Below are positions 9,661-50,104 of a DNA stretch of 64,000 nucleotides, one piece after another; the first letter of the stretch is position 1, and the number at the start of each line of letters is the position of its first letter. The translations under genes and the position numbers were made by a program. Under the pieces are notes generated by a model, which did no database searches, was not told the DNA's origin, and was given only the letters and a program-made list of their open reading frames with translations. Source of the DNA: Carex sylvatica. Its lineage: Eukaryota; Streptophyta; Magnoliopsida; Poales; Cyperaceae. Location: positions 248,001 to 312,000 of the forward strand of contig CAXKVR010000045.1 of assembly GCA_964058845.1 (NCBI GenBank), given 5' to 3'.

Positions 9661-12600
9661 GTGATTAAAGTCTTAAAGAGATAGAAGTTGGAAATGATGG
9701 TTGTCTAGAGGTTGAAAATGATCATGTTGATAAAGAGATAGAAATTGAAAATGATGGTGGTCTAACAGTGAATTTGTAAATAACCCGATGTCTTTGAATA
9801 CTGACAAATCTTGGTTGGCAACATACAAGATCGTAGACTTGGCTAACAAGAATCAATTTGCCACGCAAGACCCTGCAAATACAAATAGGGACTAAAAATG
9901 GCTAATATTTTCTGATAAAAAGGCTTTATCGAGGGCACTTAAAGAGTGACACATCACCCACTTTGTTCAAATGAAAGTAAAGAAGTCTAAGGCTTGCCGC
10001 TATACTTGTGTTTGTGTTGAAAGTAATTGTCGTTGGAGGTTGCACGCACACAGATCGAAAGGAGCTACGTTTTTTTTTGGTTAGTCAATACAACGAGTCG
10101 CATAATTGTGTTATTCCAATTGGTAACAGCATGCACCGAAATTGCACATCTGCTTTAATTTGTGAGAAAATACTTCCATCAATGAGGTCATCATTATCAA
10201 TGAGTGTAAAAGAAATTTGGCTCAAGATTAAGGATGATTAGAAAACATATATCAATTCTGATTTAGCATGAAAGGCACGTAGTAGAGCATTGAAAATTAT
10301 ATACGGTGATATCTCCATATTATATCTAAATTATGGCCCTAATTTACACTGAAACCTGTGCTTTAAAGCCTATGAATGTGGACTTTTTACTTGTATTTCG
10401 ATGAAATGTGGTACTGCTATGCTTTGTTTGGTATTTTGCAGGAAAAAGGACGAAAAACTGCATCTGACTACTTTTCATACGGTCCGTATGACATTCTGTA
10501 CAGACCGTACAAGATCTGCCCAACCACACGGAAGGATCCACAACAGAGGCACAAAGTCTCCAAGTCAAAGCCCAGGCATACGGTCCGTACCGGATCCCGT
10601 ACGGACCGTACAACGCTGATTCGAAAAATCCAGCTGGAATCTGAAATGAGCATGATTTGAGGGGCTAAAAAGGAAACCCCTGGAAGCGTGATCTGAGGCA
10701 TTAAAGGAGATATTCCACAGCAGGAAAGAAAATAAAAAGGAAAGAAATCAATGAATGAAAAAAAGAACTTTCCATCATCTTTCTAGGTTGCTGGGGGGAG
10801 AAGGAAAAGGAGAAGAGAAGGGAAGAACGCGAGTTTGTAACGGATCTTCGGATTTTTCCACTGTTTTTTATCATGAACTCTTTTATTTCTTGTTATTTGT
10901 GTTATCTCGTGAACATGAGTAGCTAATTTACTTTGTTTCTAGGGGTAAGATGTAGTTTCTAGTTTTGTTTTGTTTGTATGCTACTTGGATCTTGTGTTGA
11001 ATGCTTTGTTTTTACTTTGTTGTGTAGTATTTTTATTGCTTTATTTGTGCTTGCTTGAATTGATTAGTCATCCAGTTAGATGAATGCGCACATCTAAGTG
11101 TTAGGAGCCAAGTCTATAACATTTATTCCAACCGAATAAAGTATATGAAGTAGGGTGAAACCAAGGAGTACCCGAAAGGCGAAACTTTCCTTGAGGCGAA
11201 AGCTCTTGGATACTTTTAGTAAACTAACAAGTAACTTAGATAAATTAGGCCAAAATGCGAAAGTTAAGGTTTAACGCATCTAAGAGGGAAGTATTTGAGT
11301 CCGGTAATCGGGTATTAGGCCAAAATACGAAAGTTGAGGTTAGGTATCTAGATCTGGTCGAAAGAAACCCTAAACATAGTATCAACACAGAAAACAGTAG
11401 CTGCAGCATCAACTTGAGGTCCCATACTGACTGTACGGGAATCTGTACGGGCCGTATGCCTCGATGCTGAACAGAAATGAAATCTGAACCCTGGAAACGC
11501 CCTTTTATCAATTGAAAACAACTTTAATTATCTTTTATTGTCTTTTAAACTTGTCATAAATCAGTAGAATTGTTAGAACTAAACCCAAACCAATATCTCT
11601 CACTTCTAGAATCTTAAGTGATTTTAGGATAAGTCCAGTTTTTTTTCTTCCGTCCTTGTGGATCGATACTTGAGCATACTCAACGATAGGATAGTACACT
11701 TGCTATCTGAATTGACAGAGTATAACAAAGGTTTAAAAAGTATAGCTTGCTATACCGAAACTTTGTAGCATATATTCTGTGCGATCATACGGTAGTTGGA
11801 AAAAGTCTTTTTCTGATCTACCAAGGTACTTAAAAATGGTGCAAGCTTCCCTGGATAGCAAAAGGCATACAACAATTTAATTAGGCGAGTCTTTTGGGCC
11901 TTTTTGATAGAGGACTGGAAATATTGTCGACCGGTGGTAAGTGTCGATGGCACTCATTTGTATGGTAAATATGAGGAATGTGCTTTAATTGCTACGAGTA
12001 TTGATGCTAATGGGGGGGGCTTTATCCAATAGCTTTTGCAATTTGTGATAAAGAAAATAGAGATAATTGGAAATAGTTTTTTCACTCCTTGAGATAGTTT
12101 GTTACACGCGAAAGTAAGGTTTGCATCATATATGACCATTTTTCTAGTAATAAAGAGGTGGTATGTAGTGTATTTACTTCCAATGACAGTCATGCTCATC
12201 ATTGATGTTTGCGCCACATAAAGGCTAAGCTTAAGAAGGCAGATGTTACAGATAAAGTAGTATTGGATAAGTTTTATAAAAATGGTGAAAATAATATTTG
12301 TAAAATTATCTTGTATTTGTTCCAATTTAATGTACAAGTATTGAAATTTATTTAATGTTTAAAAATAAGGTCGGATTTTTTCATCCATAGACTAGATATG
12401 GTTTACATATATTCTATAAATATCGTATCCTATACGAAAATTTTGACCACAAACTTAATAAAATCTCATATAGATAGAATCTTTTTTAGAATTATTTAGG
12501 ATAAATTTTGTGAGGTATCATTAAACTTTATCTTTTGTCACAAATTGAAATCAAGTTTATTTTATTCTTATTTTGAGTACGAGATTGCTTGGAAATAGAT

Positions 12601-13298
12601 AGAGAAAAAAAAAATTATGATTAAGAATATTGAGCATTAGCATTTGATGGTGTAAGAAGATATGGTGTTAGTTGTTATGATCATCAACTTGTTCGAGAGA
12701 CTTAACTCGGTACTCAGAGATGCACAATCACTACATGTCACAGCATTTGTTGTTGCTATTTTTTTATAGAGTAAACCAAGCTTTTGTTGAGCGTAGCGAA
12801 TTAGGAAGAAAAATGACAACCTAGTTGTGTCCTAAAATTATTGACAAAATACGCTCTCGACAATTTGCATCTTGCGGGTATGACAGTTTGGTCCATGTGA
12901 ATTTAAGGTTAATATTGGAACCTCAGCATATCCGGTGACAATAAGCGAAAGTTCATCACATTGTGTATGTCAAGTATTTAGACTTACCGGTCTTTCTTGT
13001 AGTCATATGTGGGCTTGTTGCGGTGAACAATGGCATAGAATAATTTTTCATACACTTTGTCATGATTGATATTTCACTCAGATGTATCGAAATGCATACT
13101 CTGTCCGGTTTTATTCCATACCAGACAAGAGATTTTGACCGAGCATTAAAAGATCAACTGTGCTCTCTACTGCACTTAGGAATAAAAATGGTCGTCCGAA
13201 GTCAACTCGCATACATAATTCAATGGATATGAGAAAAATAATTGGTGCAACAAACCATAAATGCTCGCATTGCAGTGAGCTTGGCCATTATAAAAAGA
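9661..13298 (+). pseudogene. Decayed Mutator-like (MuDR/MULE) transposase, split by a solo LTR
   Basis: Blocks in order: an acidic repetitive N-terminus (9680-9780); a MuDR-type DNA-binding segment near 9960-10050 (KKSKACRYTC, then NCRWRL); an HRNCTSALICEKI block (10132-10170); then after the solo LTR a DLPRYL-type block (about 11810) and the DDE core with VVSVDGTHLYGKY near 11935-11970 followed by PIAFAICDKENRDNW; a SWIM-like CSHMWA near 12990-13010; and a zinc knuckle CSHCSELGH near 13270-13290. Stops and frameshifts are frequent, so it is dead. No Mutator terminal inverted repeats were found. The LTR at 10307-11787 interrupts it, and another LTR begins at its 3' end. Confidence 0.85.
10307..11787 (+). 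mobile_element. Solo LTR, family A (Athila-like), inside the MULE
   Basis: Begins TGATATC and ends ATCA, 1481 bp, flanked by perfect 5-bp duplications TACGG (10302-10306 and 11788-11792). Removing it plus one TACGG restores continuity of the transposase. Its 3' part matches the reverse complement of the LTRs at 34087-35576 and 39863-41348 (ACTTTGTA terminus and the conserved GGATCGATAC block near 11660). It carries three dyad pairs centred at 10483/10504, 10584/10605 and 11430/11451, each 21 bp apart. Confidence 0.92.
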
Positions 13299-14361
13299 TG
13301 TCCACAACTTTCTTTTTGAGTATTTGTGCAGGTTCATGACAAGTGAATGATCAGTAATTACACATCAAAAATGAATTAATGAACGGTAATACAACATCAA
13401 GAATGTAGTTATGAAGTACAAGACACTGGATAGCAAAATTATTAACTCAAGATTAATAATAACGTATATGTAAGACTGGTAAAATAAGCTTGAGATTGAC
13501 CTAAGTGAGGTCTACCGTCGTAACGGTCCTGTGACCGTTACAACGGAATAAATAAATCCTCTACAAAACCCATAATGCATAAAATTGGGTTTAGCGTCAT
13601 ATAACGCTAAACCAGTCAGAGGATTTTCGTTGTGGGAACCATTGTAATGGTCATGGACCGTTATCAACAGTATCCACCGTTACACTCCAAACCGCTCAGA
13701 TTAACCTACCGTTGTAACGGTCTAGGGGACCGTTACAACGATCAATGGTCAGCACTACTTACTTTCTTTTTATCATATCTCTATAAATAGAAGTTATACC
13801 AAAGTTTGGAGGATTGCTCTAACCGCCTCCAACTTTAATATTTTGTATTTACAGATCTAAAAAAAGCTGTTGTTGCTTGTGCACTCAAACTTCAGTATAC
13901 ACAATCAATCTCAAGCTTATTCAATCAATCAACCAACTCCTAAAGTGATCATGCGTGATCGAATCATTTACTACTTCGAGCCTTGTGCTCACCTAGCAAT
14001 CCTTGAGTCCTCGCGAATCAGATTTTCTTTTGAGCCTTCAGTACTCCTATTAGGGCCGTGTGACTTTCTAGAAGATTGTAAGGGCTCACCGGTTCTACTT
14101 TATAATCATTTCTCATGGGTAAAGAAAGGCACGCCATCTAGAAGGTCGCGAGCCCCGAAGACGTAGGCGTTAGTGCCGAACTCTATAAACAACTCTTGTG
14201 TCAATTGTCCTTAAACTCTACTATATACTTTACATTTAGTTTAGGACAAAGTTATTCTAGTTTCCGCCAAGAATAACTTATAGACACGCTAGAATATTAT
14301 TAAATAGACAAAAATATAAAAGACCTATCTACCCTCCCTCTAAGTGCCTTTGGGACCAACA
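13299..14361 (+). mobile_element. Solo LTR, family B (copia-like), copy 1
   Basis: Same family, opposite orientation, as 44794-45906 and 48875-50104. The right end is GGGACCAACA (LTR terminus CCAACA); the left end is eroded and begins near TGTCCAC. Flanks ATAAAAAGA and ATAAAAATA may be the remnant of a target duplication. A TATAAAT box lies at 13792-13798. Upstream of it are CCGTT-NN-AACGG-type dyads centred at about 13520.5/13540.5, 13644.5/13664 and 13714.5/13735.5. A 98-codon frame at 13870 recurs in copy 2 and has no protein homology that I recognise. Confidence 0.75.
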
Positions 14362-15100
14362 ATAAAAATATACTTAGTTACTCTAATTCTACTTTCATTC
14401 GGACCACAAACGCAAGATCCTACTATGTAGTAGTGTTGGGTGTCGATCCACAGGGATAAATATTTAAATAATTAACAACGTCTACTAGTTTAGGTTCTCA
14501 GGTTTGATTGAATTTGTTTGTAAATAATTAGATAAGTTTGTTTTATACAGTTTGCTATGTCTAGATTTAAGGCAGAGGTGCTAATTGCAAGTAAATCACA
14601 TAAATAGGGAGCATATAGGGTTTAGGTAATCTCCTTCTAAATCAATCAAAATATAATTATGACGTTCTTATCTATCCGCATATGGTACTGTCACTACTTC
14701 ATGCGATATAGATCATCCCGCAAAGCAACCCGCACATGGTACTATCATTCCCTTTGGACACCAAGGGTTTCAGCCTTATGAGAATTTGAAAGGTTCTCCA
14801 ATATTTCGATTGGCTTATGGGGAACAATTCAGATTATTACAGGATATGTAATCTAATTGACTTACTCACACCAACCCAATTAATCACGTCCCCATTCTAC
14901 CCGCCAAGTAGAATCCCTAAACCCTACTTATTACTAAGTAAATTCGTAATTATAATTTGACATGCAATATATAGTCGATATCCTGCCAAGGGAGCCAACT
15001 GGGTTCTAACCCTAGACTTTGAACCACTGTCAAGTCTCGTTAGTCGAAGTGTTATAATTCTTAACTTGTATTCCCCTCACACCGAAAAACAATGACTTAA
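14362..15100 (-). repeat. Partial LTR of another Athila-like family
   Basis: Near 14420-14455 it contains the block shared by all Athila-like LTRs in this window ('gtgtcgatccacagggata', preceded by 'caagatcctac'), which marks the 3' part of a minus-strand LTR. The remainder (14500-15090) has an LTR-like noncoding character, with a repeated 'cgcatatggtac'/'cgcacatggtac' motif at about 14677 and 14730. Neither boundary is clear. Confidence 0.5.
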
Positions 15101-15753: not shown

Positions 15754-18656
15754 TGTTGCACCAAAAATGTATAGTACAAAGTTTCAGTACAACAAACTGT
15801 ACCTTTTAACCTTAAATACACTTTCAGTTCAGATTGCAAGTATACAATCCTACCGTGTAGTATATTATCGGGTATCGATCCACAGGGAATATGGACAATT
15901 ACTAGGTTTAGACTTATTAATTAATTTCAGAAAATAATAAAAAGAAGTAAGTGCAATAAAATAGAATAAGGGGGGTTTGTTTAAATAGTCCTAAGTTGGG
16001 TTTAATACCCGAGAAGAATTGTAAACAATAGATGTAAAAATAAAGAAAGTGAATATTGGTTTGTTTTCAAGAATTGGGAAATCTAGGGGTATTCGGTCTA
16101 CAATTCCTTGTTAATTCTATCTATTTGGTATTTGTTTAAATTCATGTATGATTTGATAAGGTTTCTAACCTAATATGTCATTAAGGGTCACTTTCGTGAA
16201 TTAATAACGTGCCTAAGCAATTCGGACTTCACAGTTACGTCCTTCATCCTAGCTACCTAGACCATAAACTCTTGTTAGTCTCTCATCTCCTCAAATATTG
16301 GTACTTCACAGTTACGTCCTTCATACCAATATTTGATTCAATTTGAGATGTCCTAATAAGGGTATGACTTCACAGTTACGTCCTTCACCAAGTCCCTAAC
16401 CCTAATTTTTGTAGTTCCGGTTTGATTTCGCAGTTGGTTAGACCTTAATCAAAACCTAAGGTATTTGTGTTCATAATTGGTACTCTCCTCTCGTCCTAAC
16501 TTCTTTGGTTCTTTCGAATCCAAAGCGAAACTACATCGATTTTAAGTACTAATTATGTAGTTAACATAAATTATAAATCTCAGAAATTAGCATCAAATCC
16601 CATAAAATAATCATAATAAAAACAAATAACCGAATAAGATACAATTAAACAAGTTCATGCATTGACCTAAATCCCTAGAAAGAGATCTACTCTCTCTTGG
16701 AGAGATCCATTACAAAAGTTGGCAAAAATAAGAAGAAATGAAATAAAGAAATAGTTACACCCTTTATTGAATCAAGAACCTCAATCTTGCCTTCTTCTTG
16801 CTTGAACCTTATTTTCCTTCCTTGAAAAACTTTCGGAACTCCTAGAATGGCTGCAGATTTATTGCTATATCTCAATGAAAATTGGATGTGAGATGTGAGA
16901 GTTGTATGATATGTGATCCCCCATGAGATGTGTAGAGATCTCCCTTATATAGCAAAAGACTATACCTGATTTAGAGGCTAGAAGGTGGGGTTAGTGGGTG
17001 CTATTTTTGACTTGATTCCCTGAACTGATGTGTTCAAATTTAGCTGTCAAAAATCGTCCCTGGCTCGCTAAAAATAGAATTCGTGTTGAAAATGTGTAAT
17101 TATGGCAGTCTGCGGGTTTAGTGCGTCCGCACTGTATATGAGTGCGGGTGGATGACCCGCACTGGAGCATGTGACGCGCAGTTTCTGAAATTGGCTAAGT
17201 GTTGAGTGCGGGTTGCTGGGCCGCACTGGGTTCTCAGTGCGGACGCACTGGGCTCGAACTTTTTCTGGATTGCGCTGAGATGGTGGAAATTTGGCTAAGT
17301 GAGGAGTGCGTCCGCACTGTGTGTGAGTGCGGGTGGATACCCGCACTGAGAAGTATTTTCGGTAATTTTCATCTTTTCCTGCATTCTAAAGCCAAACAAC
17401 CACAGTAACTTGATTCTAGGTGTATTTTATTTACTTTATATTCAAAATACAAGATATATGGAGCTATTTTATGATAAAAACAAGATAGAATAGTTATATA
17501 ATTTATGCTTATCAAATTCCCCCAAGCTTGAACATTGCTTGTCCCCAAGCAACATCTAAACTTGGACTACAATTCAATCTCTAATTTAACCTCATATATC
17601 AAGTATAAATTTCTCAAACTAGGATAAATTTGTATGAGCTTGCCAAAATTTAAAAATCGCAATGTAAATTTTCTACAAATTTAAAGTTCAACCCTTGACT
17701 AATTATGGTTCACCCCACAATTCGATTATTCTAACTTTCATTTCCTTAAAGACTTAGAATTTGTAAACTTCGGATATCTAAATTTGTTACAAAAAATGCA
17801 TTCTTATTTGTGGAAATTCTTTTAAAAATCCCCCAAGTTTGGATCAAGCTTAGGTTAGAAAGTCGCGGACATCGTGTGTTGGTATTTGCAAAATTTAATT
17901 TTTATTTTTTTGCTTTTATTTTATGACACTATAAATCTTTATCCTTATGACAAAATCGGTTAGTTATAGATAACTAATTCATACCCAACTGTTTTAATTC
18001 AAAAGTGCATTTGCATGCTCATGGTTCAACCCTTCCATGACACGAACCCACATTTTTAGTGCGAACCCGGTCACTTTATCGGGCAAACTAGCGGAGCAAA
18101 GTGTCAATGATTCATTGCTATAAGTACGTCATATTGCCGTAACATAAGCAAGCGGAATCTTATTTTCTTTCTAAAAAAATTTCAATTTTGAACAATTTTT
18201 CAACATTTTTGCAAGATATCATGAATACACACATCCTTAGGCATTAAATCATACCTATGGATATCCCGATCTTTCTAAATTCATTTTCTACATATAAGAT
18301 ACATATTCAACAAAATAAATTTAAATTTCTAAGTTTTTATTTTCGTAAACCTTTATTTTCAATAAGTTTTTTCGCCAATTTATGTGGTTATTTCTAATTA
18401 TTCCAAGGGCATCCCTAAAAAATTCGTTAAAATTCTCATTAAAATTTCTAATTTTTCGACAATCACTCAAATTTATCAAAAATTTTGTTTTTGCCAACTT
18501 TTAACACAAAAATTAAACATGATTTTATAATTTATGCCTAATTAGACAATTAAGTCTAATTATGTAAGACTCTGTGTTTATAACTTCGTAAAACATCTTG
18601 ACAAATTTGTAATTTCAAGCATTTAAGTTAAAAATCACAAATCCTACTCAAGGTCA
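15754..18656 (-). mobile_element. Athila-like family C element: 3' LTR plus internal remnant, flanked by GGCCA
   Basis: Left part (about 15754-17513) is an LTR in minus orientation: TG TTGCACC terminus, the 'tatcgggtatcgatccacag' block near 15868, a TATATAAG box at 16944-16951, and its other end at TTATCA near 17513. Next is a polypurine tract (GCTTGGGGGAATT on the minus strand) and about 1.1 kb aligning with internal sequence of the 34087 element ('cccccaagcttgaac', 'ttcaccccacaa', 'aagcttaggttagaaagt'). Perfect GGCCA duplications sit at 15749-15753 and 18657-18661, and the outer flanks match the repeat copy at 15635, so the boundaries are firm. No 5' LTR is seen. It carries three AGTGCG-type dyad pairs (17120-17347). 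Confidence 0.75.
17120..17347. repeat. Family C dyad array upstream of the LTR TATA box
   Basis: Three pairs. Each joins a short dyad AGTGCG-2 nt-CGCACT (17120-17133, 17236-17249, 17305-17318) with a wide dyad AGTGCG-10/11 nt-CGCACT (17141-17163, 17205-17227, 17326-17347). Centre-to-centre spacing within pairs is about 25-26 bp. In minus-strand LTR orientation the array lies 175-390 bp upstream of the TATA box. Confidence 0.8.
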
Positions 18657-21145: not shown

Positions 21146-21166
21146 TAAGCACTTTTTTTCCTACAA

Positions 21167-24515: not shown

Positions 24516-25955
24516 TTAATTATTCTCCTCTTCTTCAATGTGATTCGTCAACTCTCTCCCTTTGGTCTCAGCCAAGCATGTGCAACACAATCCGCAAAAC
24601 GTAATTGCAAGTCCAAAGAACCCAAACGACCAAAATCTATTGTTCTGTCCTTTGGCTGACAGAATCGGTGCTAAGACGGCTGCAAAAAGACCAGATTCTC
24701 TTACTAACCCAATCGCCGTGTTGCGTACAGTCGTCGGGAATAGCTCTGCAGAGTATATCAAAAGCACATTAAATGCCGTGCAAGCTCCGCAGTAGGATAT
24801 CACTTCAGCTGCCAGCTGCATTTTCTTGGCTGTACCTACTGTGTCGAATGCACATACGAGGCTAAAGAGACCACTCAGTGTAGTCAGCATGAGAATTGAA
24901 CTCCGACGACCCATTGTTGTAGTAAGAAATAAGGTTAAGAGAGAGGCAGGTAACTCCGATAGTGCGTTTAGAGCAACACTGCTATAGAGGTTGCTTCCCA
25001 AGTTGTTGACACTGAAAGGCATCCCGTAGTAAGCGAAACTTATTCCTAAACCAGCCGTCATAACTGCTACAAGCCGCCATGGTGTCTGTCTCGACGTGCA
25101 CAATATTTTCATCGAAACAAAGAAATTATAGCCTTCATCAGCACCATTATTTTGCTCATTCATCTTCGAATGACGAGCTTGATTCCTGCCTTGCACTTTG
25201 AGCCACCTCGGTGACTCCGGAACGGTATAGTAAAGTAAAAAAGTGTAACAAAATGCAGGAATATTTGTCCAGAGGTACAGTGACCTCCATGACAAGTCTT
25301 GACCAATATAAGCCATAATTGGTAAAGTCAAGAACCCTAACATGTAAAAAATAAAACCCAGAACGCTTATCATTTCGCGCCACTGCTGATCTACAGTTTC
25401 CATTGAGAGGACAAGGGCCGTTGTGCCGATTGAAGCACGCCCGAGGCCACAGATAAATTTAAGTGCTGAGTAAATTAAAACATTTGGCGAAAATACAGTC
25501 ATGCTTCCAGCCAATGACATGATAAGGCATGATAGGAAGAGCAGCATTTTGCGGCCAAGAACAGAATCTGCAAGTGTAGATAGAAACAGGCCCCCAACAA
25601 GGCAACCGGCAAAGAAAGCAGAAGCAGGAAGTGACAAAAGAACTGTATTTTCGCATTGAAGGCCCCACTCTGACACAATGGAGGTATTGGCTGGTGAGGC
25701 CCAAGACCATGAGCCAGGCTGGAGGCCACAAGGGCTGGAAGCTTGTTTGCAGATAGGATCAGTCAGGTCGTGACACGTCCACTTAGGCTCGGCATCTGTA
25801 AAAATGGTGATGAAAGTCTGCTGGCCATCAAAGGCCCATGCGAAGGTGATGATAATTGATTGAAGAATCTTGATTGAGCTGCGTTGGCCAGCTCGGGCCA
25901 CTGTGTTGCTTTCATGGTCTGAACTCTGAGGAAGGAGGGGAGCTAGATCAACCAT
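24516..25955 (-). CDS. Organic cation/carnitine transporter-like protein, copy 1
   Basis: Single uninterrupted frame of 479 codons from ATG. Member of the plant OCT group of the major facilitator superfamily, with about 12 membrane helices; family members move organic cations or carnitine-like solutes. Visible hallmarks: first helix followed by a long loop with cysteines at 61, 69, 76 and 101; DSVLGRK (130-136) in the loop 2-3 position; PESPRWL (246-252) before the central cytosolic loop; TMGRRSS (347-353); AELFPTTVRN (403-412); acidic tail after ETKGREL (463-469). Closest relative in the window is 51404-52870, very similar along its whole length. Near the stop a small indel gives this copy a tail six residues shorter than copy 2. 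A LINE occupies the upstream region from about 26510. Substrate cannot be told from sequence. Confidence 0.92.
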   Translation of the reverse strand: MVDLAPLLPQSSDHESNTVARAGQRSSIKILQSIIITFAWAFDGQQTFITIFTDAEPKWTCHDLTDPICKQASSPCGLQPGSWSWASPANTSIVSEWGLQCENTVLLSLPASAFFAGCLVGGLFLSTLADSVLGRKMLLFLSCLIMSLAGSMTVFSPNVLIYSALKFICGLGRASIGTTALVLSMETVDQQWREMISVLGFIFYMLGFLTLPIMAYIGQDLSWRSLYLWTNIPAFCYTFLLYYTVPESPRWLKVQGRNQARHSKMNEQNNGADEGYNFFVSMKILCTSRQTPWRLVAVMTAGLGISFAYYGMPFSVNNLGSNLYSSVALNALSELPASLLTLFLTTTMGRRSSILMLTTLSGLFSLVCAFDTVGTAKKMQLAAEVISYCGACTAFNVLLIYSAELFPTTVRNTAIGLVRESGLFAAVLAPILSAKGQNNRFWSFGFFGLAITFCGLCCTCLAETKGRELTNHIEEEENN

Positions 25956-31700: not shown

Positions 31701-31711
31701 GTAGGCCAGGG

Positions 31712-34086: not shown

Positions 34087-35576
34087 TGTTCACACAAAAG
34101 CGTATGGTACAAAGTTTCAGTACAGCAAGCTGTACCTTTTAACCTTTAATACACCTTCGGTTCAGACTGCAAGTGCACAGTCCTATCGAGTAGTATATCG
34201 TCGGGTATCGATCACAGGGACGGTTCAAATCTAAACCGGACTCTACTTAAATCAGTTAAAGACTAAAAGTGAGAAATGGTTGGTTTTTGGTATTTAATTC
34301 CTAATCAGTTCAATAACAGTAATTAAATGAAAGACAGTAAATAAACTTGGTTTAAATCAATAATAAAAGGCGTTTCCAGGGTTTTAGACTTATCTCAGTT
34401 CTGCCTCTCAGTCCCTGACACGGACCGTGTAGTTTCCTACACGGGTCGTATCAGCTTACACGAGTCGTGTACTGTCATACACGGGTCGTGTGGACTTCGA
34501 GTTAATGCACCAGTCACTGTTTCTTTACGTGGTTCCTTTGTGTAGGGTTCAACTAACCAGACCTAATGTTTCTAAACCTCAACTGTCGTATGTTGGTTTA
34601 TTAACTTGGTATGGAATCTGCAATATATGCCCTCTTTGGGCTCTAAACCTTAACTGTCGTATATTGATTCGAGTTACCAAGTTACTTGTTTGGAATACTA
34701 AAGGTAACCTCTTATCCGTCGATAAGAGAAAATGTTCACCTTCCGGCTACTAGTTGGTTTCCCCTGTCGGATCACTAATCCTACCTCATGTACTTAGTCT
34801 GGTTGAAAGATCAAATTGGACACAGTACCTTATAGATGTGGCCTCATCTAGTGGTCAAACCAAATAATAATCAAGCAATTCAAACTAAGCAATTAAAATC
34901 AATCACAATCAAGCAAACACAAATTTCAACGTAAAAATCCAATAACTAGATGTAAAACAAAACATTCGATTACATCTTAACCCTAGAAACTAATAAAACT
35001 ACTCAAACATAGTACTAAAATAGATAACAAAGATAAAAGAATAAGAATTCATTCTAAAACCCGAAGTACAAAGAAGATCCACAATAAAAACTCGCGTCTT
35101 TTGCTTCTCAACTTTGTCTCCAAGCAATAGCCGTCAATCTCTAACCCTAGAATTGTCTCTCTGCTCCAGAATCCCTTCCTGGTGCAAGAAATCCCCTCTT
35201 TATAGCCTAGGTCGACTTTCCTTCCATCAGATTTCTTTCCAGAACACTAGATCTCTTTCCGGATTTGTCTGATACGACCCGTGTAACATCCTGTATGGGT
35301 CGTGTGCCTGTGTCTCTTCTGAGGTCGAGTCAACAGTCGTGTCTGTGGTCGAGTCGAGGTTGGTACGACCCGCACAAGATTGTACACGGGTCGTGTAAAT
35401 ACTTCTCAAATTCCAGATTCTCCTCGATTTCATCTCATTCCTGCAAAATAAGAACAAACTTGCAGCAGTACCACATTCTATGGATATTTTAATGAAATAC
35501 GACCGATTAAATAATTCTAGACACAGGTTTTGGTATAAAATATAGGTCGGAAAGTAGATATGTTTGTGGGATATCA
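34087..35576 (-). repeat. 3' LTR, family A
   Basis: 1490 bp, TG...CA. TATAAAG box at 35198-35204 on the minus strand. Dyad pairs upstream of it are centred at 35278/35299 and 35369/35390; downstream (U5 side) pairs are centred at 34424/34445 and 34464/34485. The block 'cgggtatcgatcacagggac' near 34203, shared with other Athila-like LTRs here, lies close to the 3' end. The 87-codon frame at 34490 exists in both LTRs and is not a gene. Confidence 0.93.
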
Positions 35577-35590
35577 AATTCCCCCAAGCT
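35577..35590 (-). other. Polypurine tract of the LTR retrotransposon
   Basis: On the minus strand AGCTTGGGGGAATT directly precedes the 3' LTR, the expected position for plus-strand DNA priming. The same motif abuts the family C LTR near 17514. Confidence 0.8.
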
Positions 35591-36581
35591 GAAATCTTGC
35601 TTGTCCTCAAGCAAAAATCCCAAATCAGGTACCAGGTAGGTCTTTAAACTAACTAAATGCAAGATGAATTCCTAATTGTGAAAGCTTACATGAGCTATTA
35701 TTATCAAGAACCTCGAGAATCACTTTGACAACAATTTGGACTTTTTCTTAACCAATTTTGATTCACCCCACAAATTTACCAATCAAACTTCAAATTATGA
35801 GATGTTTTGATATTTGTAAAGACTAATTACTTGAATTCATCAATATTTCACTTTTCTTCTGAAACAATGCCCTTGTTTGTGGTGATTTCTTTTTCGTCCC
35901 CCCAAGCTTGAACCAAGCTTAAGTTAGAAAGTTGCAGACTTCGTATGTTGATATATGCAAAAGTCTTTTAATTTTTATCGAGCTCAAAGGCATCCAGATA
36001 GATTGTGCCAGTACTCTATTTTATTTTATTTTTAAAAAAATTGGGAGACGAGCTCAAAGGCGCCCTTAAGGACTTATTGCCAGTACTCTTATTTTCTCCA
36101 TCTTTGCAAAATAATTTTTTTCATTTGCATATATCATGAATACACACATCCACTGGTATTCTCTCATATCAATGGATATCCCAATCTTTCTATTATTTAA
36201 AATCCCATTTCCTTATTTTTAAAGGCACAATTCAGTGTCAAAATGCTTTTTCGACATGATTCAAGTTTTCATCTTTTCAAATTCTCAAAACAATCTCATT
36301 TAAAGCAGTTCTATGGTAAAATATGGGGTTAGTTCTAATTAATTTGGAGTCATCCCAATCATAACCAATTTTTTCACAAAAGTCCTTAATTCTAACAATT
36401 CACGCAAGTTTTCCACCTAAAAATAAACATGTCCTAAATGCAGATACAGTTTTCTTCTATTCTACCCCCCCAAGCTTGAATGAAGCATTGTCCTCAATGC
36501 TTGAATTAACACAAGAAAAAGTAAATAGAAGAAAATATGAAAACTAACCAGACATGGAGTGAGGGATGAAGCGGGGGCACC
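35591..36581 (-). other. Noncoding internal 3' region of the retrotransposon
   Basis: AT-rich, with three 'cccccaagctt/cccccaagctg' words (about 35581, 35900 and 36467) and two 'gagctcaaaggc' words (about 35980 and 36051). Autonomous Athila elements carry pol and an extra frame before this region; here there is no such coding sequence. It aligns in part with 17514-18656. Confidence 0.7.
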
Positions 36582-37676
36582 TCACTGATCGGTAGGAGGT
36601 GGGTCGGGTGGATCTGGGCGAAGCGCCCACCTCTGAGGTGCACGGATGGTGTGCTGGTTTGTACGGCCCGGATGATATCTGTACGGTCCGTGTGAGCTGG
36701 CGCTGATTCTGCCGGTATGGAAGGTGGTTGGTGTCGTGCATGTGAATTTCTCGATCAAATCTCCGATCACAGTTTGCTGAACTCGCATTATAATACTCCA
36801 AATCCTCATTTGCAGAGCTGTCAAATCATCCAAGAGGTTGGGGTTGGCTGGAAACGGTTTGAGTTCAAGAGTTGGTTGCTCTGGCTGGGCTAGGGTACGG
36901 TCCGTATGAGATGAGTCCGATCCGTGTACTGCCCCTGTATGAGCCTTGTGCGCCCCGTGTGCCTGCGCCAGCTGCTCTGATTGTGGGGCACGGACCGTGT
37001 GAGATGCATGCAGTCCGTGTGTCAGGTCCTCCAGAGTTGCAGACTTTGCTTCTGTTGCAAGCACCTTCTCTTTAGCAGCTTTCTTCTCCTGCGATTCAGA
37101 TAAATAATCAGGATATTTTTTTAAAAATTTACCATAATCGTCACGGTTTTGTTCCTTGACCAAGTGGTCAACCATGTCGATCGCGCAGCACGTTTTTGGT
37201 TTGTCTGGTTCAGATGGGTACTTCATAGCTCGATTGAGGTTGAATTGGACCTTTTCGTCTCCAATCCGCAGAGTCAGGGTTCCATTCTCCACGTCAATGA
37301 GTGTTCGAGCTGTCTTTAAAAATGGTCGTCCCAGAATGATAGGGATTTCTTTGTCCTCCTCCATCTCCATGACAACAAAGTCAACAGGTACATAAAACTT
37401 GCCAACCAGAACTGGCACATCCTCCACTATCCCAAGTGGTAGCCTGACAGAAGAATCAGCAAGCTGTAAAGTCATGCGCGTGGGTTTGAGCTCGCCTACT
37501 CCCATGCGCTCAAAGATAGTGCGTGGCATGAGACTCACGCTGGCCCCTAAGTCACATAGTGCTCGCTGAATGGTAGCTTTCCCGATTTGGCAAGGAATGG
37601 AGAATTTGCCTGGATCTTCTAGTTTTGGCGGGAGCTCGCTACTCAAGATTGCGCTGCACTGCTCTGTGAGTTTCAT
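36582..37676 (-). pseudogene. Retropepsin-type aspartic protease frame, pol truncated
   Basis: 364-codon frame. Aspartic protease features: CDLGAS active site (41-46, D42), LADSSVRLPLG flap-side block, and IILGRPFL (113-120). After about residue 190 a Ser/Thr/His/Arg-rich linker contains three paired dyads at DNA level (36667/36687, 36901/36921, 36994/37014). The point where reverse transcriptase should start is replaced by unrelated sequence ending near 36582, so an internal deletion removed RT, RNase H and integrase. The frame is offset from the upstream gag extension by a run of eight G residues (minus strand, about 37684-37691). Confidence 0.88.
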
Positions 37677-37680
37677 CGTC

Positions 37681-39441
37681 TCATGCCCCCCCCAAGCTTC
37701 GTTTGTTTGTGAGGATGTCCTTGAGGAACTTGGTGTAGGTTGGTATTTGGGTTAAGGCATCGGTGAATGGAATGGTGATGTGCAGTTGCTTGAGCACTTG
37801 GATGAAGTTGGCGAATTGCTCGTTAAGTCTAGACTCAGCTAGCCTCTGAGGAAAGGGTACAGGCGGCCGATATGGTGGTGGTTTTTGGGCCCCCTTTCTA
37901 CCCTGGCGGTCAGGTCCATTTTGTACGGGTCGTGTCACACTGACACGGTCCGTGTCGAAACTAGTTTGAACTGGTTCTGCTGGCCGGGTCGACTCTGCAA
38001 GGTTGGGTTGCTCAGTTTCTACAACATGTGAGTTCTGCACGGTCCGTGTGGAGTCTGCACGGTCCGTGTGCTGGGCTGCTGAGTCAGTGGATTTGGCAGG
38101 ACCCTGATAATAGGTCCCACTTCGCAGTGTGATGGCTTTGACCTCTCCTCTGGGGTTGAGTTCTGGTTGACTGGGCAGCCTTCCAGGTTGTGGTTGATTC
38201 GGTGCGGCTTGATGACCCATTTGTTCCAATATCAATTTATTCTGAGCAACCAGTTGAGCATTCATCATTTGCATCTGTTGCATTTGCTCAAAAATCATCT
38301 GGTTCATCTTTCCTTGCTCATGCATGAAATCACTCACAGCGGGAGTGATATGTGGCTTGGGAGGACCGGATTGAGATGCTTGGTTGTTTGAGATGGGAAA
38401 TGAAGCATTGTTGTAGAAGTTTCAGTTGTTGCCGCCCGAGGGGTTGTTGAATGGGGCGGGGTTGTTCTGGTTCCACCTCCAGTTTTGCTGCTCAACCGGG
38501 TCTTTGGAGTAGGATCGGCTGTAAGGAGGTTTCGGAAAGTATGATGGTTCATTGTTGAGAGAATGGACTTGTTCGGTCTCTCCATCATCTTGCGCCAGTG
38601 GGCATTGCTCATACGCATGCCCCTTATCGCCGCACATGACACAGGGTTGTGGCTGCTGGCTGGCGACCGCCTTCACGCTCATCTTGTCGAATGCTCTCTG
38701 CATAGCATCTATTTTGGCGGTTAGGGTGGTGATCTGATCCACTTCGAATTTGCCTCCACCTCCTGGTCGAGGGTTGTCGCGACCGGACCATTGTTGATTC
38801 TGAGCCATGCTGTCAATGAAATGCATAGCCTCGCGAGGTTCCCTTGACATAAGAGCTCCACCTGCAACAGCATCAACAGATATACGAGTGCTTTTAGTTA
38901 AACCATCGTAAAAAGTTTGGATCAAGAGCCAATCAGGGAGGCCATAGTGGGGACAAGAATACTGTAACTCCCGAAACCTTTCCCAGGACTCGTTCAGGGG
39001 TTCATCAGACATTTGCCTAAAGCCAGTCAGTTGGGTTCTCACCTTAGCAGTTTGTTTATGAGGGAAAAACCTAGTTAAAAATGAATCAGACAATTCCCTC
39101 CAGTTGGTAATAGAATCCCTTGGTAATGACCCTAACCATTTCTTGGCTTTATCCCTAAGTGTGAAAGGAAACAAAGCAAGTTTAATGTAATCAGACTGTG
39201 CCCCATTGGTCTTAATGGTGGTACAACACTCGAGAAAAGTTTGGAGATGAGTGTGTGGATCTTCATGATCCAATCCATTGAAGGTGTTCTGCTGCACAAT
39301 GTTGACAATGCCCGGATTTAAGGCCGGTTGTTGCCCTGGAATTCTTGGCAGCCGGATTGCACCTCTCACGTCCCCAGCTCGAGGCACATTGAACTCGCGA
39401 AGAGTCCTTGGTTGAAAGCCGTGCATGCTCATATCATCCAT
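37681..39441 (-). pseudogene. Gag polyprotein frame with one in-frame stop
   Basis: Starts at ATG 39441. Residues about 55-165 form a retrotransposon gag domain (KKWLGSLPRDSITNW, then LTRFFPHKQTAKVR). A CCHC knuckle (CX2CX4HX4C, about residues 266-279) follows. A TGA at 38422-38424 interrupts the frame, which then continues in the same register through a Q/M-rich segment and a proline-rich linker to about 37681. The TGA differs from a tryptophan codon by one base, so it may be a simple nonsense mutation. Upstream of the start is a noncoding leader with two more dyad pairs (39519/39539 and 39653/39674). Confidence 0.88.
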
Positions 39442-39838
39442 GTCGTCAGTCAGAAATTCCTCCCCTGCATTCTCCCCTTCACTCTTTGAATGCTGGCTCT
39501 AGTGCTCAGAGTGTACGGACCGTGTGTCTCTTGCACGACCCGTGTGAGGAGGTTGATGGCCAGGGGGTACGGCTGTCAGATGCGAATCGGGTAGGGCAGC
39601 CATGTTGAGAGGTGGTTGTGCAGGAACAGGTGGGTCTGGAGGGGTTACACGGACCGTATCAGAAGTTGTGCGGTCCGTGTCAAGTACCGGTCCCCTACTC
39701 CTCAGATGGTAATCGCCCTTTGGAGGTAGTATGAATTCCAGCTTGTTCCTGAGAGAGATAAAATAAGAACAGAAAAGATAAAGATTAAAATCTAGATTAA
39801 CTAAAATAAAGCAAAAATCCAGAAAATAAATGATGCCG

Positions 39839-39856
39839 TCCCCGGCAACGGCGCCA
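39839..39856 (-). other. Primer-binding site, tRNA-Asp type
   Basis: Minus-strand TGGCGCCGTTGCCGGGGA, 6 nt from the 5' LTR, is the complement of the 3' end of plant tRNA-Asp as used by Athila-group elements. This identifies the 5' side and fixes orientation. Confidence 0.88.
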
Positions 39857-39862
39857 AAAACT

Positions 39863-41348
39863 TGTTCACACAAAAGCGTATGGTACAAAGTTTCAGTACA
39901 ACAAGCTGTACCTTTTAACCTTTAATACACCTTCGGTTCAGACTGCAAGTGCACAGTCTTATCGAGTAGTATATCGTCGGGTATCGATCACAGGGACGGT
40001 TCAAATCTAAACCGGACTCTACTTAAATCAGTTAAAGACTAAAAGTGAGAAATGGTTGGTTTTTGGTATTTAATTCCTAATCAGTTCAATAACAGTAATT
40101 AAATGAAAGACAGTAAATAAACTTGGTTTAAATCAATAATAAAAGGCGTTTCCAGGGTTTCAGACTTATCTCAGTTCTGCCTCTCAGTCCCTGACACGGA
40201 CCGTGTAGTTTCCTACACGGGTCGTATCAGCTTACACGAGTCGTGTACTGTCGTACACGGGTCGTGTGGACTTCGAGTTAATGCACCAGTCACTGTTTCT
40301 TTACGTGGTTCCTTTGTGTAGGGTTCAACTAACCAGACCTAATGTTTCTAAACCTCAACTGTCGTATGTTGGTTTATTAACTTGGTATGGAATCTGCAAT
40401 ATCTGCCCTCTTTGGGCTCTAAACCTCAACTGTCGTATATTGATTCGAGCTACCAAGTTACTTGTTTGGAATACTAAAGGTAACCTCTTATCCGTCGATA
40501 AGAGGAAATGTTCACCTTTCGGCTACTAGTTGGTTTCCCCTGTCGGATCACTAATCCTACCTCATGTACTTAGTCTGGTTGAAAGATCAAATTGGACACA
40601 GTACCTTATAGATGTGGCCTCATCTAGTGGTCAAACCAAATAATAATCAAGCAATTCAAACTAAGCAATTAAAATCAATCACAATCAAGCAAACACAAAT
40701 TTCAACATAAAAATCCAATAACTAGATGCAAAATAAAACATTCGATTACATCTTAACCCTAGAAACTAATAAAACTACTCAAACATAGTACTAAAATAGA
40801 TAACAAAGATAAAAGAATAAGAATTCATTCTAAAACCCGAAGTACAAAGAAGATCCACAATAAAAACTCGCGTCTTTTGCTTCTCAACTTTGTCTCCAAG
40901 CAATAGCCGTCAATCTCTAACCCTAGAATTGTCTCTCTGCTCCAGAATCCCTTCCTGGTGCAAGAAATCCCCTCTTTATAGCCTAGGTCGACTTTCCTTC
41001 CATCAGATTTCTTTCCAGAACACTAGATCTCTTTCCGGATTTGTCTGATACGACCCGTGTAACATCCTGTACGGGTCGTGTGCCTGTGTCTCTTCTGAGG
41101 TCGAGTCAGCAGACACGTGGTCGAGTCGAGGTTGGTACGACCCGCACAAGATTGTACACGGGTCGTGTAAATACTTCTCAAATTCCAGATTCTCCTCGAT
41201 TTCATCTCATTCCTGCAAAATAAGAACAAACTTGCAGCAGTACCACATTCTATGGATATTTTAATGAAATACGACCGATTAAATGATTCTAGACACAGGT
41301 TTTGGTACAAAATATAGGTCGGAAAGTAGATATGTTTGTGGGATATCA
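39863..41348 (-). repeat. 5' LTR, family A
   Basis: 1486 bp, TG...CA, almost identical to 34087-35576. TATAAAG box at 40974-40980 on the minus strand with the dyad pairs upstream; near 41105-41120 a small indel changes sequence next to one pair. Outer flank is TCTAA (41349-41353). Confidence 0.93.
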
Positions 41349-42011: not shown

Positions 42012-43405
42012 TGATATCTCGCAAACATATATACTTTTCGACCTATATTTTATGCCAAAACATGTGTTTAGAACCTTTAAATCGGTCATATTTCATTGAA
42101 TATCTATAGAATATGGTAATGCTGCAAGTTTGTTCTTATTCTGCAAGAATCGGGTGAAATTGAGGAGAAATCTGATTTTGAGAAATCCTGACACAGACTG
42201 TACAACATCATGTCCGGACCGTATCAGCCTCGACCCAATCACCAGTCCGACCATTGACTCGATCACAGAAGAAGCACATTGACATGGACTGTGTCAATTC
42301 TGATACGGGTCGTGTCAGACAAAATCTGGCAGGAAATCTGGAATTTTGGAAAGAAGTGGGATTCCCTGCTCCAGGAGAGGTATCTTAGTATACAGGAGCT
42401 AACCCTAGGCAACCTTCTTGGCGGCTGACTTGGAGGCGAAGTAGAGAGGAGAAAAACGCAAGATTTCTGACGATTCTTCTTTGTATTTCGGGTTTTGTCA
42501 TGAATTGTCTTTCTTACTCTTATTTTACTGTTTTTAAAATGATGTTTGAGTAGATTTTTAGTTTCTAGAGTTATGATGTAGTCGAATACTTTGTTTACTT
42601 GCTAGTTATTTGATTATGTGTTGATTCTTGTATTTGCTTGCTTGAGTATTATTTTAATTGCTTTTCTAAAATTGATTGATTATTATTTGGTTTGACCACT
42701 AGATGAGGCCACATCTATAAGGTACTGTGTCTAATTTGATCTTTCAACCAGATAAGTATTTGAGGTAGGTTCACAAACTGAGAGGTAGAACCAATAGTAA
42801 CCGAGAGGTGAACTTTTCATACATCGAGAGATGGTGGATACCTTTAGTAAACCAAACAAGTGACTTAGGTAATTCAAACCAATAAACGAGAGTTGAGGTA
42901 AGAATCCCGAGAGGACTAAATTGCAATTCCATTATCGAGTTTATTAAGCCAACAAATAAGAGTTGAGGTTTAGGAACATCAGGTACGGTCAGTTTACCCT
43001 ACACAAGTCAATCGGCGCAGAAATCAGATAATAGTTGTATTTACCCGAAGTTGACACAGACTGTGTCAATTCCTGTCCGGGTCATGTCAATCGAGAGACA
43101 GAGTTGCAGATGAGTCAGGAACCCTGAAAACCCTTTTTAAACCATTTTAAAAATCCAATTTAAATTACCAGTTATTTCTTATTACTGTCATTAGAATATT
43201 AAACAACCAAATCAACTTTTCACACTTCTAGTCGTTCGATTAATTTAGGTTAAGTCTAGTTTATATTTGAACCGTCCCTTGAATCGATACCTTATCATAC
43301 TACTCGATAGGATTGTGCACTTGCAATCCGAATCGAAAAGTGTACCAAGGTTTAAAAGGTACAGTTTACTGTACTGAAATTTTGTTACACACTTTTGGTG
43401 TAACA
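42012..43405 (+). mobile_element. Solo LTR, family A-related, inside the LINE
   Basis: 1394 bp from TGATATC to TAACA with perfect CTTGT duplications (42007-42011 and 43406-43410). The LINE reading frame continues across the junctions. The 3' part has the conserved 'gaatcgataccttatcata' block near 43271. Dyad pairs centred at 42197/42218, 42288/42309 and 43060/43081 are each 21 bp apart, though individual arms are more degenerate than in the full element. Confidence 0.9.
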
Positions 43406-44340: not shown

Positions 44341-44793
44341 GTTGTCGATCAACATATGTATTGATAAAAAGAGTTATGCTAGCTCGTTCTATTATTGACA
44401 ACATCGATTGTTAATCATGTTATGCTAGCTCGTTCTGTTCTTGGCAAGGACACAAAAAATCATTAATTCATGATTAACAGGTTATGTTAGCTCGTTCGGT
44501 TCAAATACATAACATGATTAACTTGTAAGGTTATGCTAGTTCGTTATATTCAAATGCATAATATAACACTTATGTTATGCGAGCTAGAACAGAACGAACT
44601 AGCGATCAACTTGCCACGAAGACTGAAGATATTCTAGCTCGTTCTGTTCAAATGCATAACATGATTAACAATCGCTAATTAGTTTATACAAAAAGGGTTC
44701 AAATACCTCATATCTTTCATATTTAACATTTTTTTTTAATTTTCGGCAAAGCGCTGATCAACAGATGTATTGATAAAAATAGTTATTTACATA
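44341..44793. repeat. Short array of GTTATGCTAGCTCGTTC units
   Basis: At least five imperfect units of about 45-60 bp, each with a 'gttatg(c/t)tagctcgttc'-like head followed by 'aaatgcataacatgattaac'-like sequence, run from about 44371 to 44680. One unit near 44572-44605 is inverted ('gttatgcgagctagaacaga'). It lies between the LINE and a solo LTR. No coding content. Confidence 0.7.
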
Positions 44794-45906
44794 TGTTGGT
44801 CCCAAAGGCACTTAGATGGGGGTGAATAGGGCCTTTTTAAATTTTTAATCTAAGTTATAAAGTTCAAGTGTGTCGTAAAGTTATTCCTGGCAGAAATTTA
44901 GAATAACTTTGTCCTAAACTAAAATGTAAAATAAATAAAGTAAAGAGTAGAGTTTAGAGACACTTGACACAAGAGTTATTTACGGAGTTCGGCTCTAACG
45001 CCTACGTCTCCAGAAACCACGACCTTCGAGAGCGTGCCTTTCTTTACCTAATGAGAAATTATTACAAAGTAGAACCGGTGAGCCCTTACAATCTTCTGGA
45101 AAGTCACACGACCCGAACAAGGAGCACTAAAGGATCAAAGAAAGACAATCTGATTCGCGAGGATTCAAGAATTGCTAGGTGAGCACAAGGCTCGAAGTAG
45201 TAATTGTTTTGATCACGCATGATCACTCTAGGAGTTGTTGAATTGATTGAATAAGCTTGAGATTGATTGTGAGTATTGAAGTTTAAGCACACAAGCAACA
45301 ATGACTTTCTCTAGATCTGTAAATACGAAATATTAAAGTTGGGGGTGGCTAGAGTGTCAATCCAAATCTTGGTATAGCTTCTATTTATAAAGATATGATA
45401 AAAATGAAGTATTTGGTGCTGACCATTGCAATGGTACAGGGACCGTTACAACGGTAGGGTAATTTGAATTGGTTTATATTGTAACGGTAGAGGACCGTTA
45501 TAACGGTCTCCATAATGGAAGTCTCTGACTCATCTACCGTCTGGCGCAGATTAATATCAATTTATTTCAGTGCAGTCATTTCTACAAATTTATTTATTCA
45601 GTTGCAACGATTCCTGACCATTGCAACGGTAGGCCTCACTTAGGTCAGTTTCAAGCTTATTTTATCAATTTTACAGATTGATTGTCCTTAATCTTGAGTT
45701 ATGTTTTTGCTATCCAGTATCTTGTGCTTCATGACCACATTCTCGATGTTATATTGCAGTTCAGTGATTCATCCTCGATGTGTATTTATTGAATCTTCAG
45801 TTGTCATGAACCTGTACATGTCTCAAGAAGAAAAACTATAAAATGCAATTATGTATATTTTGCAAATCTAGTCAAACGAGCAAGTCGAGGGCTCCAAAAG
45901 CCAACA
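44794..45906 (-). mobile_element. Solo LTR, family B, copy 2
   Basis: 1113 bp from TGTTGG to CCAACA (6-bp terminal inverted repeat), flanked by ACATA and ATATA, a 5-bp duplication with one mismatch. TATAAAT box on the minus strand at 45383-45389. Upstream dyad pairs are centred at 45428.5/45448.5, 45481.5/45500.5 and 45604.5/45623.5. Confidence 0.85.
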
Positions 45907-48675: not shown

Positions 48676-48874
48676 TAGATTCTCAGGTCCTATTATGTTA
48701 TATAAGTGTCTCAATGTTTGTGCCTATTATACTTTCGATATTTGGCGGATAACCATAACCATTTAACAAGGAGCACCTCATTTTGATGGGAGAGGTCTAG
48801 AATCCCCAGTCTCCCATTAGCCTTTAGAGCACAAGTTCTCTCCTAATTAATCAGACAGTTTATGCATTTGCAAT

Positions 48875-50104
48875 TGTTGGTCCCAAAGGCACCTAGAGGG
48901 GGGTGAATAGTTTTTTTTTTTTACTTTTTAATCTAAATTGAATTATCTAGTGTGTCTATAAATTATTCTTGGTGGAAACTCGAATAACTTGAATCTAAAC
49001 TAAAACATAAAATAAATAAAGTAAAGAGTAGAGTTTAGAGACACTTGACACAAGAGTTATTTACGGAATTCGGCACTAACGCCTACGTCTCCGAAACTCA
49101 CAACCTTCGAGATGGTGCGCCTTTCTTTACCTAATGAGAAATTAATACAATGTGAAATCAATAAGCACTTACAATCTTCTAGGAAGGCCGGAGCACGAGC
49201 ACTAAAGGCTCAACAAAAAATAATTCGAACAACAAAGAGTTCAAGGATTGTAAAGTGAGCAACAAGGCTCAAGGAGTTACAAGGTGTTTGTAGTAAATAA
49301 ATATCTCTCACAAGTCACTCGAATTTTTGAAGTTGTTTGAGTATGGTGGAGGAGATATTCGGTTGTTGAATGAGTATTGAAGTTTAAGGTCTAGCAATCA
49401 TAGTGGCTCTCTTTTGAAATGAGAAGAAGTTTTGATGGCTGGAGCACACCTTAGAAACCTAGTATTTGCTTTTATATAAAGGGAAAGAGGCAAATCTAGG
49501 TTTATAGACTTTACCATATCTAACATCTATCTTCCATGGCTAATACCGATCCATACGTTCATACTTCGAACAAAGTTAATACATAGAAGTTGTAGATCTC
49601 GGTCTCCTGTAAATTTCAAACTTTGATTCACTCAAATCGAAATTCGTATGACCAAACGACGACCAAAATACGAAAGGTGTGTAGGCTGATGGAACACAAC
49701 CGTTACAACAGTCCAACTCTGGAACCCAGACCGTCAGGTGACGGTCCAGATGAATTAAACCATTGTGGTTGGTATTTTTACCGTTGTAACGGTCATCAAC
49801 TGTTCTAAAACTTCAACCCTCTTTAAACAAGCGTATCTTGGTGCTCGAGTGTTTGATTTTGGTATATGACCACTTTTCAAAAAGCTTGTGAACAGTAAAT
49901 GTTGATTTTGAAGTCTTGGCCTTCATTGAAACAGTGTTGCAGTCAGTTATCTCAAGGACAAAGGAAACAATCTCAACAGTCTTGTTGCATTTCTAAAACT
50001 TATGAACCTGTACATATCTCAATTCAAGAAAATTATTAAATTCAATAAATATATGTTTTGTAATTATAATTAAACAGACAAGTAGATTATGACACAAACC
50101 AATA
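48875..50104 (-). mobile_element. Solo LTR, family B, copy 3
   Basis: 1230 bp, TGTTGG start; the terminus CCAATA is a mutated CCAACA. Flanked by GCAAT and GCAAC (one mismatch) within LINE coding sequence. A TTTATATAAA box lies near 49471-49480. A dyad pair is centred at 49765.5/49786.5, and a single decayed dyad at about 49705.5. Confidence 0.82.

Follow-up and report, generated by a model that had tools for sequence, protein, structure and literature searches.

Long terminal repeat (LTR) retrotransposons of three unrelated families in Carex sylvatica carry short, family-specific palindromic dyads that recur in pairs, with the centres of the two dyads 20-21 bp, or about two helical turns, apart. 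The arrangement was pointed out in an earlier note on a 64,000-nucleotide stretch of DNA (assembly GCA_964058845.1, contig CAXKVR010000045.1, positions 248,001 to 312,000; here, the window), and it is real and stronger than that note stated. With moderate confidence, we read the dyads as putative operator-like sites at which dimeric, sequence-specific proteins would bind DNA, with host transcription factors as the most likely candidates.

The comparisons proposed in the earlier note, with shuffled sequence and with other copies of the elements, both came out in favour of the pairing. The window contains 70 palindromes that have CG in both arms, whereas 20 first-order Markov resamplings averaged 28.8. 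The same resamplings gave a mean of 0.05 pairs at 19-22 bp, with a maximum of 1; the observed number is 6. Genome-wide pairs were counted over the 64 Mb assembly with the reversed pattern as control. Spacings of 11-41 bp were allowed for family A (dyad pattern ACGGNCCGT), 14-44 bp for family B (CCGTTNNAACGG), and 16-46 bp for family C, where a pair is a narrow AGTGCG-2-CGCACT dyad and then a further AGTGCG half-site. Family A gave 513 exact pairs versus 0 for the control (437 at 20-21 bp), family B gave 11 versus 0 (10/11 at 20-21 bp), and family C gave 852 (428+424) versus 0, with 568 (275+293) at 20-21 bp. Among 100 family C pairs listed, 64 lie at 20-21 bp, 33 at 40-41 bp, and 3 elsewhere. 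Most of the genome-wide counts come from a limited set of elements in multiple copies and do not stand for independent events. Independent evidence is provided by the distinct adjacent-dyad pairs: 13 in L031 (a full-length element of subfamily A2), 12 in subfamily A1 with only one of its LTRs included, and several in each of families B and C.

Not every CGG-CCG palindrome pairs in this way. The control pattern CGGNNCCG gave 185 pairs versus 114 for its own control, and 7 of the 50 sites listed lie at 20-21 bp, where an even spread over 11-41 bp would give about 3; three of those 7 sit, by eye, in CGGGTC tandem repeats. A second control pattern, CGGNNNCCG, gave 19 pairs versus 69, with 0/19 at 20-21 bp. 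Since neither pattern shows the 20-21 bp peak, the pairing belongs to particular families.

The half-site differs between families and reads RTACGG in A2, for the most part RCACG in A1, YAACGGT in B, and AGTGCGG in C. At half-site position -5, T occupies 188/188 cases in four A2 elements (48/48 in L031), while A1 has C 38 times and T 20 times (n=58) and L048 has C 12 times and T twice. Many separate sites per element have thus changed in step, an indication that each family has a single recognising factor. Alignment places the A1 and A2 LTR pairs at homologous positions, so that three places in the LTR have been kept while the half-sites at them changed. The flanks of the 13 adjacent-dyad pairs in L031 share a mean of 27% and 30% identity, a set that includes three overlapping units of one four-dyad array. 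Such unrelated flanks show that the pairs did not derive from each other by copying, and duplication as the origin of the A2 pairs is rejected. These results also bear on the idea that the dyads are functionless by-products of short palindromic insertions or slippage, spreading within elements. Arrays of tandem copies do exist (e.g., AGTGCGTCCGCACT every 21 bp on contig C8), but the unrelated flanks, the narrow spacing in three families, and the retention of three LTR places in A1 and A2 despite changed half-sites make this very improbable.

Family A carriers have the order protease, reverse transcriptase (RT), RNase H, integrase, a PF03732 gag, and PF03078, as in Ty3/gypsy elements. This pol order together with the PF03078 ATHILA open reading frame (ORF) assigns family A to the Athila lineage; the same features (Ty3/gypsy order, PF03732, and PF03078) place its carriers outside Sirevirus, which is copia. 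The A2 relatives L031-L035 are full-length. L031 encodes gag, protease, RT, RNase H, and integrase, and ATHILA ORF-1 (PF03078) follows pol in L033 and L034. The LTRs of the A1 element in the window are 98.5% identical, with a 5-bp flanking repeat (TCTAA) on both sides. Of the 20 family A centres listed in the earlier note, 19 match ACGGNCCGT at 0-2 mismatches; the site at 43081 (GTCCGGGTCATGT) is weaker and failed the scan. Among the 23 dyads of the window A1 element (≤1 mismatch), 16 have a partner at 19-22 bp.

In family A the pairs extend into protein-coding sequence. The earlier note had placed the pairs in LTRs, where they do occur, but this was too narrow, as the Athila coding linkers also carry them (window 36646 to 39674). 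Most Athila coding pairs are spaced at 20 bp, and their two dyads therefore fall in different reading frames, as in the A1 pairs 37929/37949 and 38043/38063. The 26 exact dyads in the examined Athila ORFs are divided 15, 3, and 8 across the three reading frames. Six Athila ORFs, some of them homologous copies, contain 3, 3, 4, 3, 2, and 3 exact dyads, against means of 0.007-0.127 when synonymous codons were shuffled with the protein held constant, and the observed number was reached in 0/2000 shuffles for each. With one mismatch allowed, it was reached in 19, 9, 4, 4, 93, and 1 of 2000 shuffles. The coding dyads exceed what the proteins impose. No dyad at ≤1 mismatch was found in the ATHILA ORF of L033. 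As a separate regularity, pairs in the gag-protease and protease-RT linkers of L031, L032, and L035 come in twos, with the first dyads 102 bp apart and the inner dyads 82 bp apart.

Family B is carried by a Sirevirus-like copia element. Several of the marks of a Sirevirus are present in L046: a copia gag (PF14223), multiple identical putative polypurine tracts (AGGGGGAG at 4688, 4707, and 4776 ahead of the 3' LTR at 4957), an AT/TG junction, and a C-rich stretch near the LTR end; the junction tract is AGAGAGAG, not the expected octamer, and the octamer AGGGGGAG was itself deduced from the accessible text of PMC2829016. Seven of the eight family B centres proposed earlier match CCGTTNNAACGG at 0-2 mismatches, and position 49765.5 holds no family B dyad. 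The half-site table comprises 47 dyads (n=94 half-sites), in which position 1 is C or T in 94/94, position 7 is T in 85/94, and the dyad centre is RY; the search pattern (one mismatch allowed) accounts in part for the AACGG core but not for Y1 and T7. Pairs lie upstream of the TATA box in both A1 and B1, and the last B1 dyad ends 38 bp ahead of CTCTATAAATAG.

For family C, a distance of 25-26 bp had been proposed. Distances of 25-25.5 bp are present as a narrow-to-wide measure, and like-oriented AGTGCG half-sites lie 21 bp apart (17120/17141, 17305/17326). The carrier L055 is a gypsy element with a 1602-aa gag-pol ORF and LTRs that are 100% identical. A chromodomain match (PF00385; E 1.7e-5, 25.0 bits, just below the 25.1 cut-off) occupies residues 1555-1601 of 1602, after SH3_Tf2-1. 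No clear gene besides gag-pol was identified in L055, and its three other ORFs have no Pfam match. Family C half-sites number 22 in the L055 LTR versus 1.6 expected; internally there are 16 versus 14.2, with no excess. A second carrier, L056, is an Athila-like gag-pro element; its gag shares 39% identity with that of A2. A dyad-bearing 220-bp stretch of the L055 LTR (437-657) is 80% identical to the L056 LTR (6409-6628), which suggests a module passed between lineages or kept in both. Relative to the gag genes, the shared stretch has opposite orientations in the two elements. L056 also has family C dyads in its own post-protease stretch, a place it has in common with family A, with a different dyad.

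We propose that two dimers would bind together, two helical turns apart on the same face of the DNA. LTR pairs upstream of the TATA box may act as promoter or enhancer elements, with binding predicted to activate transcription, and the Athila pairs in gag-pol inter-domain linkers and after the TATA box may serve internally to hold the entire element in an open or transcribed state. Every family would have settled on a half-site of its own. The earlier note had offered either a dimeric factor or methylation and silencing targets; the former fits best, given the 20-21 bp spacing, free centre, concerted half-sites, and unrelated flanks, and the latter finds no support in the sequence. Host factors are favoured because L055 has no clear gene beyond gag-pol and because similar family C dyads occur in two lineages. 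For family B, whose half-site YAACGGT contains the AACGG core of MYB3R/MSA sites, the likely binder would be an R1R2R3-MYB of MYB3R type; MSA elements are described as MYB3R sites with AACGG or CCGTT in the accessible text of PMC10905365. Other candidates were compared by their consensus sequences. SBP (GTAC core) fits the A2 arms and fails the CACG arms of A1; TCP (GGNCC core) fits A2 and fails A1 dyads with ACC or GGT centres; for NAC (CGTR core), the half-site fits and the usual dimer spacing does not. For LOB-domain factors, a search of the open-access literature turned up nothing of use.

Several observations weigh against dimeric host factors acting at promoters. A promoter would not usually have pairs within coding sequence or downstream of the TATA box. 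TATAAA or TATATA is absent from three of four A2 LTRs, and the single one in the fourth (L031), at LTR position 1239, is a long way from the upstream pairs. In seven stretches, 111/130 family A dyads (≤1 mismatch) have a partner at 19-22 bp and the rest are unpaired, and the dyads ahead of the ATHILA ORF in L033 are spaced 64-246 bp apart. The A and C half-sites match no factor that we can name with confidence. MYB3R sites in known genes are not fixed in number or orientation, according to the part of PMC10905365 available, so the strict geometry of family B is unexplained by MYB3R alone. Finally, dyad CpGs in family B show no reduced decay (see below).

An RNA or single-stranded DNA hairpin, in which the self-complementary dyads of a pair fold together and are selected for packaging, dimerisation, or as a small-RNA precursor, seems quite unlikely. 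All ten stretches folded in silico (eight from L031, two of family B from the window) give an inter-dyad hairpin, with z from -2.5 to -5.4, but any two copies of a single palindrome would fold likewise. A test of the centre base covers family A; the centres of B are always RY. Centre bases are complementary in 8/31 A pairs versus 8.1 expected; sense-strand G-U centre pairs, which would favour a hairpin, number 6 versus 3.5, and Watson-Crick and G-U pairs together 14 versus 11.7. Complementarity at chance indicates that the centre base is free, as under a protein dimer, whereas a selected stem should pair there. As a selected feature the hairpin is thus disfavoured in family A; other arm positions do not discriminate (7 versus 4). 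A hairpin requires neither a fixed 7-8 nt loop nor the 40-41 bp peak of family C; the narrow spacing and that peak speak for DNA. In its favour, palindrome-rich regions of maize Sirevirus LTRs are reported as small-RNA hotspots in the accessible text of PMC5311732.

CpG decay gives no support to the dyads being targets of methylation and silencing. Across 22 A1 LTR copies, with the window LTR as reference, dyad CpGs have become TG/CA at 20/330 versus 94/748 outside (Mann-Whitney p 0.007; site permutation 66/5000), and non-CpG positions are alike (0.037 versus 0.035). The difference persists without the other LTR of the same element (p 0.011) and with L010 as reference (18/330 versus 103/726). 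Family B shows no dyad effect (27/80 versus 64/237 and 20/79 versus 59/209). The dyad CpGs of A1 look less methylated or otherwise kept, and this is not general.

Element-specific protection from silencing is a rival explanation. A trans factor, element-coded or recruited from the host, might bind dyads throughout the element and remove methylation, as VANC does on VANDAL elements, with half-sites co-evolving. The spread of pairs over the whole Athila element, the concerted half-site switch between subfamilies, and the reduced CpG decay in A1 are consistent with this, and VANC targets likewise differ per family, with VANC causing methylation loss throughout elements (PMC5735166, accessible text). 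However, family A pairs are not mutual copies and often lie in coding sequence, no clear spare gene was identified in the chromovirus-like L055, and CpG decay is not reduced in family B. We consider such a factor fairly unlikely. Equally speculative, and in our view improbable, is a common grammar across LTR lineages, in which family-specific dyad pairs and fast-diversifying dimeric factors would mark an element as self along its whole length, coding sequence included, and prevent its silencing; such a system would be the retrotransposon equivalent of VANC, and lineages would have exchanged U3 modules.

Table 1. Locations of dyad pairs and their carriers. Coordinates are window positions unless an element or contig is named.
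Feature	Location	Strand	Dyad centres and remarks
Solo LTR, subfamily A2	10307..11787	+	Flanking repeat TACGG; pairs 10483/10504, 10584/10605, 11430/11451, 21 bp
Family B LTR match (copia, Sirevirus-like)	13309..14370	+	Pairs 13520.5/13540.5, 13714.5/13735.5
TATA box CTCTATAAATAG of this family B LTR	13779-13790	+	
Family C dyads	17120..17347		Narrow AGTGCG-2-CGCACT and wide AGTGCGG...CCGCACT
Element A1, Ty3/gypsy gag-pro, Athila kind	34087..41348	-	LTRs 34087-35576 and 39863-41348
Four A1 dyads downstream of TATA box	34418..34491	-	34424/34445/34464/34485; spacings 21, 19, 21 bp
Counterparts in other LTR	40200/40221/40240/40261	-	
TATA-like box GGCTATAAAGAG of LTR 34087-35576	35196..35207	-	Second copy 40972-40983
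Two dyad pairs upstream of A1 TATA box	35272..35396	-	35278/35299, 35369/35390, 21 bp each
Counterparts in other LTR	41054/41075 and 41141/41162	-	
A1 protease ORF	36582..37751	-	PF09668
Dyads in A1 protease ORF, after protease domain	36640..37020	-	36646/36667/36687, 36901/36921, 36994/37014 (0-2 mismatches)
A1 ORF, gag-protease interval, two pairs	37923..38069	-	37929/37949, 38043/38063, 20 bp each
A1 gag	38422..39498	-	PF03732
A1 ORF before gag, two pairs	39513..39680	-	39519/39539, 39653/39674
Solo LTR, family A	42012..43405	+	Flanking repeat CTTGT; degenerate pairs 42197/42218, 42288/42309, 43060/43081 (43081 weak)
Second family B LTR match	44784..45833	-	Dyads 45428.5/45448.5, 45500.5, 45604.5/45623.5
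Family B fragment	48866..49792	+	Good dyad 49786.5, another 49705.5
L031, LTR pairs	421/442, 522/543, 1358/1379		
L031, pair at gag start	1931/1951		
L031, pairs in gag-protease interval	3439/3459, 3541/3561		
L031, pairs in protease-RT interval	4465/4485, 4567/4587		
L031, four dyads in RNase H-integrase interval	6247 to 6310		
L031, pairs after integrase	7867/7888, 8039/8060		
Inverted repeats with ACGGTCCGTCCGGTCT arms	C6:18243-18291, C10:57328-57377, C15:491300-491349		

Other repeats and genes were encountered during the scans. The inverted repeat with ACGGTCCGTCCGGTCT arms is about 50 bp long, has an A/T-rich loop, and matched the family A pattern at 40-41 bp. A tandem array of AGTGCGTCCGCACTAGGCATG with a period of 21 bp lies at C8:548350-548426. 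In the CGGNNCCG-type scan, 11 of the 50 sites listed belong to a repeat family in which CGGTACCG is found with CGGTGCCG or CGGTACCG 39 bp apart (e.g., C1:27320-27366). The dyads CGGAACCG and CGGTTCCG are spaced 21 bp apart at C34:635838-635866 and C70:142883-142911, possibly a further family with the same geometry. The target-site repeat of the A2 solo LTR (window 10302-11792), TACGG, has the letters of its own half-site, possibly by chance. Two long ORFs of the window, 24516-25958 and 51404-52924 (minus strand), lie in blocks that are 84% identical, a local gene duplication; by eye they are transporter-like, putatively of the organic cation transporter kind.

In many plants, LTR retrotransposons account for a large part of the genome, and the drivers of their transcription are known for few. 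The recurrence of one rigid geometry across three lineages provides a concrete handle for fishing out the factors involved. The gag-pol sites, which occur in all three frames, would be a rare case of DNA-level function written into protein sequence. Should a co-evolving factor lie behind the concerted half-site switch, the way in which families keep their regulation apart could be tested directly.

The earlier note knew of no description of such an arrangement, which holds only in part. For Sireviruses, which family B resembles, Bousios et al. 2010 (PMC2829016) described family-specific palindromic repeated motifs (RMs), mostly with a CGG-CCG core, that lie in many copies ahead of the TATA box in the LTR. 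Further copies occur near env, in two elements at the env start, and RMs are reported to be confined to Sireviruses and lacking in classic copia elements (PMC2829016). Palindrome clusters have also been discussed as cis-regulatory and as small-RNA hotspots in the available parts of PMC5311732 and PMC10760457. The dyads resemble RMs in being short, many-copy, family-specific palindromes in the LTR upstream of the TATA box. They differ in occurring also in Athila-lineage gypsy elements and a chromovirus-like element, in being mostly paired, and in extending into gag-pol coding linkers; no paired 20-21 bp spacing was found described in the accessible text of PMC2829016. Among the papers listed in searches of the open-access literature, none was found to describe two-helical-turn pairing, gag-pol coding copies, a concerted half-site switch, or presence in Athila and chromovirus-like elements. 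The family B dyads are palindromic and lie upstream of a TATA box, but the order in CCGTTNNAACGG is CCG then CGG, outward, unlike most listed RMs.

Two further systems invite comparison. Like VANC targets in VANDAL elements, the dyads are short family-specific motifs spread over the element that change together between related families, but VANC motifs are described as lying in non-coding tandem repeats with an element-coded binder (PMC5735166, accessible text), whereas some pairs in the present elements are coding, the pairs are not mutual copies, and they have no known element-coded binder. Unrelated flanks and coding location set family A apart from a tandem non-coding origin of the VANC type; some family C arrays are tandem. 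Like the MSA sites of MYB3R, the family B half-site YAACGGT holds an AACGG core, but family B has inverted pairs with a 2-bp RY centre recurring at 20-21 bp, and MSA number and orientation are given as unfixed in the available part of PMC10905365.

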